From positions 1-64,000 of the forward strand of contig VEPA01000254.1 of assembly GCA_012026675.1 (NCBI GenBank): a stretch of 64,000 bases of DNA. Reading direction: 5' to 3'. A program made the position numbers and the translations under genes. Shown here one piece after another: positions 4,064 to 45,185 of this stretch. The number at the start of each line of letters is the position of its first letter. Position 1 is the stretch's first letter. The notes below the pieces were generated by a model. That model searched no databases. It saw only the letters and a program-made list of their open reading frames with translations, and was not told the origin of the DNA. The DNA is from Betaproteobacteria bacterium (lineage in GTDB: Bacteria; Pseudomonadota; Gammaproteobacteria; Burkholderiales; Rhodocyclaceae).

Positions 4064-4077
4064 TTGACAAATATCAA
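4064..4077. promoter_or_regulatory. FNR-type box TTGAC-AAAT-ATCAA between divergent hemN and fnr
   Basis: 9/10 match to TTGAT-N4-ATCAA; on the hemN side a TATACA element lies at a spacing compatible with class II activation. Confidence 0.7.
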
Positions 4078-4109: not shown

Positions 4110-4868
4110 GTGCATGCAAACGTCAAGCAGAATGTAGTTCCACTGATCACTTCGGGGCTCAAGGTTGCCTGTTCGCAGTGCAACTTGCGCGAACTCTGCC
4201 TGCCCCTCGGACTGTCGGAACAGGACATGGGGCGACTCGACAGTCTGATCGGCGGCGGCCGCAAGCTGAAACGCGGCCACCACCTATACCGCGCCGGCGA
4301 CCCTTTTGAATCGATCTTCGCCGTCAAGGCCGGGTTTTTCAAGACCGATGTGTTGACCGAAGACGGTCGCGACCAGGTCACGGGTTTTCAGATGGCCGGC
4401 GAGATTCTCGGCATGGATGGCATCAGCACCGAAACCCATACCTGCAATGCCGTTGCCCTGGAAGACAGCGAAGTCTGCCTGATCCCCTTCACCGAACTGG
4501 AAATGCTTTCCAGCGAGATTCGGTCCCTGCAGCACCACCTGCACAAGGTCATGAGCCGCGAAATCGTGCGCGACCACGGCGTCATGATGCTGCTCGGCAC
4601 CATGCGCGCGGAAGAGCGCCTGGCCGCCTTTCTGCTCAACCTTTCGCAACGCTTCAGCGCCCGCGGCTATTCCCCGGCCGAGTTTCACTTGCGCATGACG
4701 CGCGAGGAAATCGGTTCCTATCTCGGTCTCAAACTGGAAACCGTGAGTCGCGCATTCTCGCGCTTCCAGGATGAGGGACTGATTTCCGTGCAGCAGAAGC
4801 ACATCCGCATTCTGGATATTCCCCGGCTAAAAGTCCTGCTGACGCCGGCCGACGGGCGTATTGGCTAG
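4110..4868 (+). CDS. fnr: Fumarate/nitrate reduction (FNR/ANR) transcriptional regulator
   Basis: N-terminal ACSQCNLRELC cysteine cluster, cNMP-binding domain, and HTH EEIGSYLGLKLETVSRAFSRFQDEGLI. GTG start at 4110 per the track; exact start uncertain. Confidence 0.95.
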   Translation: MHANVKQNVVPLITSGLKVACSQCNLRELCLPLGLSEQDMGRLDSLIGGGRKLKRGHHLYRAGDPFESIFAVKAGFFKTDVLTEDGRDQVTGFQMAGEILGMDGISTETHTCNAVALEDSEVCLIPFTELEMLSSEIRSLQHHLHKVMSREIVRDHGVMMLLGTMRAEERLAAFLLNLSQRFSARGYSPAEFHLRMTREEIGSYLGLKLETVSRAFSRFQDEGLISVQQKHIRILDIPRLKVLLTPADGRIG

Positions 4869-9217: not shown

Positions 9218-9231
9218 TTGACCGCCGTCAA
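9218..9231. promoter_or_regulatory. FNR/DNR-like palindrome TTGAC-CGCC-GTCAA upstream of hemerythrin-DUF2249 genes
   Basis: Perfect 14-bp dyad, 8/10 to FNR consensus, about 58 bp upstream of the 9160 start. Confidence 0.4.
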
Positions 9232-11147: not shown

Positions 11148-11161
11148 TTGACCTTGATCAA
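11148..11161 (+). promoter_or_regulatory. FNR-type box TTGAC-CTTG-ATCAA upstream of the universal stress protein gene
   Basis: 9/10 match; a TACGCT element at 11183-11188 places a start site near 11195, about -41 from the box centre. Confidence 0.6.
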
Positions 11162-11216: not shown

Positions 11217-11660
11217 ATGTTCAAGCACATTCTTGTTCCCACCGATGGATCGCCGCTTTCGTCCGATACGGCAAAACGCGCGATTGCGTTCGCCAAGGAA
11301 GCCGGGGCGAAGGTCACCTTCTTTTTCGCGAAACCGGATTATCCGGTAGCCTTTTATGGCGAAGGCGCATTGATCGACCCGACTACGCCGGACAAATTCG
11401 CCGAAATGGCCGAGCAGCAGGCAAGGGAGATTCTTGCCGCCCATGAAGCCGTGGCGAAAGCCGAGGGCGTCGTCAGCGCATCCCTCAGTTTTGTCAGCGA
11501 CATCCCCTATGAGGCGATCATCGCTGCCGCCGAATCGGCCGGGGCCGACCTGATCTTCATGGCATCGCACGGTCGACGCGGCTTTAGCGGGCTGTTGCTC
11601 GGCTCGGAAACACAAAAAGTGCTCACCCACTCCAAGATTCCTGTGCTGGTCTATCGCTGA
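11217..11660 (+). CDS. Universal stress protein UspA-family
   Basis: MFKHILVPTDGSPLSSDTAKRAIAFAKEAGAKVTF...LIFMASHGRRGFSGLLLGSETQKVLTHSKIPVLVYR. Confidence 0.95.
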   Translation: MFKHILVPTDGSPLSSDTAKRAIAFAKEAGAKVTFFFAKPDYPVAFYGEGALIDPTTPDKFAEMAEQQAREILAAHEAVAKAEGVVSASLSFVSDIPYEAIIAAAESAGADLIFMASHGRRGFSGLLLGSETQKVLTHSKIPVLVYR

Positions 11661-16610: not shown

Positions 16611-18047
16611 TCAATGAGCCGCTGCGGGGGCGAGTACCGGCGCATTGACTGCCTTGCCACCCGCCATGGTCAGGAACATGTTCCAGGCCATGATGATCAT
16701 CCCGGAGAGGAACAGCAGGCCACCCAGCAAGCGGATGGTCCAGAACGGATAGGTCGCCTTGACTGACTCGACAAAGGAGTAGGTCAGCGTGCCATCCACG
16801 TTCGTCGCACGCCACATCAGCCCCTGCATTACACCGGCAATCCACATCGAGGCGATATAGAGCACGACGCCGATGGTAGCCACCCAGAAGTGCACTTCGA
16901 TCAGTTTCTTTGAATGCATCTCAGGCTTGCCGAACAGGCGCGGCAGCAGGTAGTAGATCGAGCCGATGGAAATCATCGCCACCCAGCCCAGTGCCCCGGA
17001 ATGAACGTGGCCGACGGTCCAGTCGGTGTAATGCGACAGCGCATTGACTGTCTTGATCGACATCATCGGGCCTTCGAAGGTAGACATGCCGTAGAAGGAC
17101 AAGGAGGTGATCATGAATTTCAGGATCGGGTCATCGCGCAGTTTGTGCCAGGCGCCCGACAGCGTCATGATGCCGTTGATCATGCCGCCCCAGGAAGGTG
17201 CCAGCAGGATCAGCGAAAAGATCATGCCGACCGACTGGGTCCAGTCCGGCAGAGCCGTGTAATGCAGGTGGTGAGGACCCGCCCACATGTAGGTGAAGAT
17301 CAGGGCCCAGAAGTGCACTACCGACAGACGATAGGAATACACGGGGCGTCCGGCCTGCTTGGGCACAAAGTAATACATCATGCCGAGAAAGCCGGCGGTG
17401 AGGAAAAAGCCCACCGCGTTGTGGCCGTACCACCACTGGATCATCGCGTCCTGTACCCCGGCGTAGGCCGAATATGACTTCGGCGTCAGGATGCCGGCGG
17501 CAAACACCGGCACAGCTGCGCTATTGACCAGATGGAGTACCGCGACAGTGAGGATGAAGCCGCCGAAAAACCAGTTCGCCACATAGATATGCGACACGGT
17601 GCGTTTGACGATCGTGCCGAAGAACACTACAGCATAGGACACCCAAACCAGCGTGATCAGGATATCGATCGGCCATTCGAGTTCCGCGTATTCCTTGCCG
17701 GAGGTGAATCCGAGCGGCAGCGACAAGGCGGCAAGCACGATGACCAGTTGCCAGCCCCAGAAAGTGAAGGCCGCCAGACCCGGTGCGAACAGGACCGCAT
17801 GACTGGTGCGCTGCACCGCATAGTAGGAGGTGGCAAACAAAGCGCAGCCGCCAAAGGCAAAGATCACTGCGTTGGTGTGCAAGGGGCGCAAGCGCCCGTA
17901 GCTCAGGAACTCGTGCACGTTCAACTCCGGCCAGACCAGTTGGGCCGCGATGATGACGCCGACCAGCATGCCGACGATGCCCCAGATTACGGTCATCACA
18001 GCGAACTGGCGCACGACTTTATAGTTGTAAGTCGCTTGCGATTGCAT
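16611..18047 (-). CDS. ccoN: cbb3-type cytochrome c oxidase subunit I
   Basis: 478 aa; [66 protein letters not shown]. Confidence 0.97.
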
Positions 18048-18271: not shown

Positions 18272-18298
18272 AAAAAAAAGGGTGCGCAACGCGCACCC
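18272..18298 (-). terminator. Rho-independent terminator, 8-bp perfect GC-rich stem, 3-nt loop, U8
   Basis: Plus strand AAAAAAAA-GGGTGCGC-AAC-GCGCACCC. Confidence 0.9.
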
Positions 18299-18354
18299 CT
18301 AACCCCAACAGAGAGCCTTGCGGCAACGGCGCGAAGCCATCACCATAAAACCCG
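18272..18354 (-). ncRNA. Candidate FNR-activated small RNA between ccoS and ccoN (about 80 nt)
   Basis: Minus strand: FNR box TTGACtcagATCAA, GATAAT -10 at class II spacing, 9-bp hairpin (18322-18344), then terminator GGGTGCGC-GTT-GCGCACCC-T8. Inference, no expression data. Confidence 0.5.
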
Positions 18355-18388
18355 ACACGATTATCATAATTCCTCACCGGACGCACCT

Positions 18389-18402
18389 TGATCTGAGTCA
18401 AC
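18389..18402 (-). promoter_or_regulatory. FNR-type box TTGAC-TCAG-ATCAA (minus reading), upstream of candidate sRNA
   Basis: 9/10 consensus; centre about 42 nt upstream of the start site predicted from GATAAT (18360-18365). Confidence 0.65.
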
Positions 18403-18413
18403 AGTCCCGGAGT

Positions 18414-18632
18414 TTAGCTACGGCCACTACGCCTACTGGCGACAGAGCCGGCGTTAGGCTTCTCTGAGGCCTTGCGCTCCTCGCCGCCTCCATCATCGTC
18501 GTCCATCAGAATGCGATGCCCGGGGCCCTCCAGATCCTCGTATTGGCCCGTCTTCAACGACCACCAAAACAAGGCGGCGATGACGAAAACCAGTACCAAG
18601 GATAACGGTATCAGCAGATACAGGATGTCCAT
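18414..18632 (-). CDS. ccoS: cbb3-type cytochrome oxidase assembly protein CcoS
   Basis: MDILYLLIPLSLVLVFVIAALFWWSLKTGQYEDLEGPGHRILMDDD. Confidence 0.93.
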   Translation of the reverse strand: MDILYLLIPLSLVLVFVIAALFWWSLKTGQYEDLEGPGHRILMDDDDGGGEERKASEKPNAGSVASRRSGRS

Positions 18633-45046: not shown

Positions 45047-45060
45047 TTGATCTAAGTCAA
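45047..45060 (+). promoter_or_regulatory. FNR-type box TTGAT-CTAA-GTCAA upstream of the YCF48/RND/DUF1302/DUF1329 operon
   Basis: 9/10 consensus; TATACA at 45082-45087 gives a start site near 45094, about -41 from the box centre. Confidence 0.6.
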
Positions 45061-45185
45061 TAGGCTGAATGCAGTATCCAGTATACATTGTCGCGGCGTT
45101 CGTCAATAGCCGCTTCCAGGCAACGCACGGCAGAACCGGGGCCGAAAATTACAAGTGATATCCCGGAAGAGGAGATGTGGTTCAG

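Follow-up and report, generated by a model that had tools for sequence, protein, structure and literature searches.

A predicted FNR-activated small RNA gene between ccoS and ccoN, conserved in the Rhodocyclaceae

The ccoS-ccoN locus

The window, by which we mean the whole 64,000-nt stretch of Rhodocyclaceae DNA that was analysed, carries on its minus strand a candidate gene for a small RNA (sRNA) between ccoS and ccoN, among the genes of the high-affinity oxidase (Table 1). Read along that strand, the ccoS stop codon is followed, after a gap of 12 nt, by an FNR box, a -10 element, a predicted start site (+1), a stem-loop, a core sequence, an intrinsic terminator, the FNR box of ccoN and finally ccoN itself. 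For the predicted RNA the folding energy is -38.4 kcal/mol and z is -4.3; none of 200 shuffled sequences reached this value.

A first-pass annotation, made from the DNA letters alone, had sketched this arrangement. The transcript of about 80 nt that it proposed is predicted here at 82 nt (18353-18272, to the last T), the single-stranded stretch and the strong U8 terminator are both found in the sequence, GATAAT lies where it had been placed (18365-18360), and ccoN does possess a perfect FNR box of its own downstream of the terminator. Two details needed revision: the first FNR box is present with coordinates shifted by one base (18388-18401, not 18389-18402), and the 9-bp hairpin belongs to a longer stem, in which the 5'-end GGGUUUU pairs with AAGGCUC below the 9-bp helix.

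Table 1. Features of the candidate sRNA gene, its neighbours and its likely activator in the window
Feature	Position	Strand	Remarks
Predicted sRNA transcript	18272..18353	-	82 nt, +1 at G18353; class II geometry
5' stem-loop with compensatory changes	18313..18353	-	
Invariant core GGCUCUCUGUUGGGGUU, proposed mRNA-pairing region	18301..18317	-	Alignments A1 and A2; RBS complementarity
Intrinsic terminator	18272..18300	-	10-bp stem, GUU loop, U8
FNR box TTGACtcagATCAA	18388..18401	-	Centre 18394.5, which is -41.5 of the sRNA promoter
-10 element GATAAT	18360..18365	-	CATACT in most relatives
ccoS (context)	18414..18632	-	Immediately upstream; stop at 18414; ccoI further upstream
ccoN (context)	16611..18047	-	Start at 18047
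Perfect FNR box of ccoN TTGATctgtATCAA	18153..18166	-	Neighbour, outside the sRNA gene
fnr (FNR orthologue, likely activator)	4110..4868	+	C-x2-C-x5-C plus distal Cys

Promoter and likely activator

The centre of the upstream FNR box puts the predicted +1 at G18353 with exact class II spacing, which bears out the promoter geometry that had been proposed. Sequences of the form TTGAY-N4-RTCAA are expected 0.11 times by chance in 64 kb, and six were found. The FNR orthologue encoded in the window scores 246 bits against a cut-off of 228. Further FNR-like boxes were observed upstream of fnr itself (4064-4077), near hemerythrin-like and phaC-like genes (9218-9231), before a universal stress protein gene (box at 11148-11161, gene at 11217-11660) and ahead of a gene whose start is at 45177 (box at 45047-45060).

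Conservation is the decisive evidence against a chance origin of the box and promoter. The comparison took in 156 distinct copies of the sRNA whose core is intact and whose upstream sequence is long enough. TTGA-N6-TCAA occurs in the 150 nt upstream of 153 of them; a -10-like hexamer could be recognised in 132 copies, and in every one of these it starts 28 or 29 nt past the centre of the box. In addition, the bases between the -10 element and +1 vary freely across the 29 copies of the genus, and conservation restarts at the predicted +1.

Distribution across the family

A DNA search with a 151-nt region recovered the locus in 29 of 31 genus members; the two genomes that gave no match are assemblies about 80% complete. 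A search with the transcript alone recovered it in 116 of 151 family genomes, representing 55 of 68 genera. The box, the -10 element and the terminator, whose conservation in close relatives the first-pass annotation had named as a check, are all kept across the genus and in most of the family, where the order ccoI-ccoS-sRNA-ccoN is nearly universal. Among the matches listed in a named scan are Azoarcus, Aromatoleum, Thauera, Zoogloea, Denitromonas, Uliginosibacterium, Sulfuritalea, Sulfurisoma, Propionivibrio and Hydrogenophilus. Built from the core together with the terminator, a covariance model gave two strong matches (G348 and G367, about 54-56 bits) in two further families of the order, each match adjoining ccoIS and ccoN. 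A class-level search under strict filters yielded no match beyond the order at E <= 1e-5.

Weak order-level covariance matches (L196 and L197) lack the core or the box and were treated as chance, and in genomes with a second weak match, no sibling copy has box, core and terminator together. One contig labelled Thermoflexus (Chloroflexota; L141) carries a Rhodocyclaceae-like cco cluster with the sRNA, and is probably misbinned. Insertions of about 12-20 kb lie between ccoIS-sRNA and ccoNOQP in G004, G009 and G021.

Independence from ccoN and ccoIS

Because it nearly always sits between ccoS and ccoN, the locus might be taken for a cis element of ccoN, namely an FNR-driven leader whose attenuator or terminator tunes ccoNOQP. 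However, the FNR box of ccoN stands downstream of the terminator, and at roughly half the loci of the genus the sRNA does not adjoin ccoN: the ccoN orthologue lies about 2 kb from the sRNA in G018 and G017, 12 kb away in G009 and G021, 20 kb away in G004 and on another contig in G002, and box, -10 element and RNA are kept in every one of these genomes. Moreover, in one genome (G026, locus L024) the sRNA follows an SDR gene and retains box and core with neither ccoIS nor a close ccoN orthologue beside it. Since the gene and its box survive in genomes in which ccoN sits 2-20 kb off, the sRNA is not a ccoN leader, and we regard the leader reading as highly improbable.

A second possibility is that the RNA is the 3' untranslated region of ccoIS, with a terminator that ends ccoIS, a short RNA that is a processed fragment and an FNR box that serves another purpose. 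The ccoS stop codon lies 12 nt from the box, and the terminator can end ccoIS as well, but a class II promoter with fixed spacing precedes nearly every copy, conservation begins at the predicted start rather than at the ccoS stop, and some copies are more than 1 kb from ccoS or have no ccoS (L115, L176, L024). Read-through from ccoIS, which had been named at the outset as an outcome that would refute an independent sRNA, is weakened by this promoter geometry and by the L024 copy, and as a full account of the RNA it is very unlikely. Both sources, the independent promoter and ccoIS read-through, may coexist. The independent, FNR-type sRNA gene with its own promoter that was originally suggested is, in our judgment, very probably real: gene and promoter are conserved, and expression is predicted.

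Structure conservation and coding potential

Conservation extends to the fold. In an alignment of 30 sequences, the drawn structure is 98.2% paired, and five of the 16 pairs of the 5' hairpin have changed on both sides; this compensatory pairing was matched by none of 500 shuffles and by no slid version. The core CTCTCTGTTGGGGTT does not vary, and alignments A1 and A2 show GGCUCUCUGUUGGGGUU without any change.

The locus also contains a 15-residue frame, MVMASRRCRKALCWG, which is open in the window and in several relatives and could be read as a peptide gene. In the alignment of 30, this short ORF was rejected: its ATG is missing in three sequences and its stop in about half, one lineage is frameshifted, variation in the region tracks base pairing, and there is no conserved ORF. 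A peptide-coding function is accordingly given almost no weight here.

Predicted targets

Target candidates came from pattern searches with the complement of the core, AACCCCAACAGAGAG, allowing at most two mismatches in ten genomes of the genus. Twelve of the 20 non-self matches examined lie in sense directly before a start codon, a count that is inflated by the invariant, purine-pairing CUCUCU half of the core, which fits any strong Shine-Dalgarno sequence. The genes behind these 12 matches at ribosome-binding sites (RBSs) are a DsrC/TusE-like gene (PF04358; five genomes), a Lipoprotein_15 gene (PF03640; four genomes), pobA (two genomes) and an acyltransferase gene (one case). The names pobA (FAD-binding monooxygenase), boxB and boxC were assigned from sequence. 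The RBS stretches complementary to the core measure 13-20 nt; many genomes have them at the dsrC/tusE-like and Lipoprotein_15 genes, and some at pobA. The window's own genome carries both main sites, ACCCCCGACAGAGAG at dsrC (C248) and AACCCGAACGGAGA at the Lipoprotein_15 gene (C235).

For 26 dsrC leaders of the genus the median duplex is -32 kcal/mol, in energies that ignore accessibility and partly use the G's of the terminator stem, and 18 of them fall past the 1% tail of 588 background genes, whose starts were crudely predicted. Of the Lipoprotein_15 leaders, some from other genera, 16 of 30 lie past the 0.2% tail; orthologous leaders are non-independent samples, which applies to both counts. 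The median z against shuffled cores is about -3.5 for both gene groups, and the ccoN control has a median of -11. Furthermore, AACC is kept in 22 of the 26 dsrC leaders, with a varying distance to the purine half, and in the strongest duplexes among background genes the complement is not at the RBS. A second DsrC paralogue (L389, G010:C212), 72% identical to the query, has a full RBS complement and a duplex of -37.5 kcal/mol.

With a relaxed, genus-wide RBS pattern, iscR and two aerobic benzoyl-CoA genes, boxB and boxC, came up several times, and we propose these as targets tentatively; pobA is likely to be a target in some species. The reversed pattern gave 4 matches against 67, a poor control that was not used as proof because reversal destroys the Shine-Dalgarno order. 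dsbA and a thiamine-pyrophosphate enzyme also matched the relaxed pattern with weak duplexes (about -20 to -21) and are not claimed.

A dsrC orthologue is absent from about half of the family genomes tested, and therefore the target set must differ between genera. In another reading, the sRNA is real and FNR-activated and its main partners are others than those named, for example as a sponge or by protein titration. Many family genomes that bear the sRNA and lack dsrC or pobA orthologues keep the same core, and no target common to all genera was found. Against this stand two unrelated genes that carry long RBS complements across many genomes, some of them in other genera, and we find such a role improbable. 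Blocking of the RBS, with dsrC and the Lipoprotein_15 gene as targets, is the likely mode of action in our assessment of the complementarity.

The dsrC leaders (L260-L285) also contain a conserved TATAATCCGACAAAAATAGTCAAGTAT about 30-60 nt upstream of the ATG, which we take to resemble a type 1 IscR site that overlaps the -10 element. dsrC, a proposed sRNA target, may thus also be under Fe-S control.

Comparison with known sRNAs

At the locus, no Rfam family reaches its cut-off. A functional parallel is FnrS of Escherichia coli and other enterobacteria, which represses aerobic genes in an Hfq-dependent manner through RBS pairing. The first-pass annotation had likened the architecture to that of FnrS and recognised no sequence homology, and both remarks hold: the two share a class II FNR site, a short RNA and an own terminator, but the FnrS covariance model gives no match even at E <= 10, and the genomic place and the predicted targets (dsrC-like, Lipoprotein_15, pobA) differ. 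Activation of E. coli FnrS by FNR takes place from a class II site at -41.5, in the account that PMC3032703 gives with reference to Durand and Storz 2010. Another parallel is the betaproteobacterial FnrS/AniS of Neisseria, which is anaerobically induced and has a class II FNR box, a 5' stem-loop, an unstructured region and a terminator (PMC3032703). The sRNA has the same layout, and its induction is predicted, but its scores with the AniS model (RF02274) stay below the cut-off of 50, at 18.2 bits in the window and 22.0 in locus L046, and fall mostly on the terminator.

In seven of eight sampled copies, SorY (RF02651) gives the top Rfam match, always on the sRNA and with up to 35.5 bits; in the window it scores 23.6 bits against a cut-off of 111, and the SorX (RF02784) cut-off of 46.6 is also far above. 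In L046 (1444-1545) and other copies, the consistent sub-threshold likeness to SorY/SorX runs via CUCYCUGUUGG plus the terminator. The Rhodobacter RNAs resemble the sRNA in 5' stem-loop, CUCYCUGUUGG motif and terminator, and CUCCCUGUUGG is common to SorX and SorY. They differ in being alphaproteobacterial members of the RpoE/RpoH stress network (PMC8307010), with matches far below their cut-offs. The core motif is short, and the likeness may stem either from a remote common ancestor or from convergent evolution of similar motifs for RBS pairing.

S17 of Bordetella pertussis, also reported from Aromatoleum, is a betaproteobacterial sRNA with a frozen, RBS-blocking pairing region; it lies beside coq7, its level is higher in the Bvg+ mode, and RNase E processes it (PMC11722255). 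The sRNA described here sits at ccoS-ccoN instead, and RF02278, the bdhR1 'toxic sRNA' family to which S17 is related, has no match at it. By location and by this non-match, S17 appears to be a different RNA. The open-access papers searched contain no earlier description of the sRNA and no Rhodocyclales sRNA besides S17 from Aromatoleum; the terms 'small RNA' and 'noncoding' are absent from the main text of an Accumulibacter FNR study.

Proposed function and implications

We have good confidence, on the strength of its anatomy, conservation, covariation and complementarity, that the sRNA is a stand-alone, FNR-activated, trans-acting regulatory RNA that blocks RBSs. When oxygen falls, [4Fe-4S]-FNR would bind the box at -41.5 and turn on the class II promoter, giving an RNA of about 82 nt that ends at its own terminator and is protected by that terminator and the 5' stem-loop. 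The core CUCUCUGUUGGGGUU, presumably aided by Hfq, would then pair with C-rich/purine-rich RBSs of the consensus CCCC-AACCCC-AACRGAGA immediately ahead of the start codon and block translation. The dsrC/tusE-like sulfur-carrier gene and the Lipoprotein_15 (PF03640) gene are the best-supported candidates, and sulfur-relay and other genes are probably shut down in this way at low oxygen.

In its predicted function the sRNA is FnrS/AniS-like, yet in sequence it forms a separate family, new but of a functional kind already known. This is a further hint that different lineages acquired FNR-activated sRNAs independently, as distinct sequence families. A bolder reading, which we consider doubtful, would make it a clade-defining Rhodocyclales sRNA that links FNR to sulfur relay of the DsrC/TusE type and to those steps of aromatic catabolism that depend on oxygen (PobA, Box), acts on dsrC alongside an IscR-like promoter site, and shares its pairing motif by descent with the alphaproteobacterial SorX/SorY.

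The Rhodocyclales (Azoarcus, Aromatoleum, Thauera, Zoogloea, Denitromonas, Propionivibrio and relatives) include major wastewater denitrifiers and aromatics degraders, which move between oxic and anoxic surroundings all the time. If pobA and the box genes are real targets, the sRNA would follow an FnrS-like logic, in which oxygen-dependent metabolism is turned off once oxygen is gone. If the proposal is true, a family-wide, frozen, FNR-controlled sRNA would give these bacteria an FnrS-like post-transcriptional layer with named mRNA partners.
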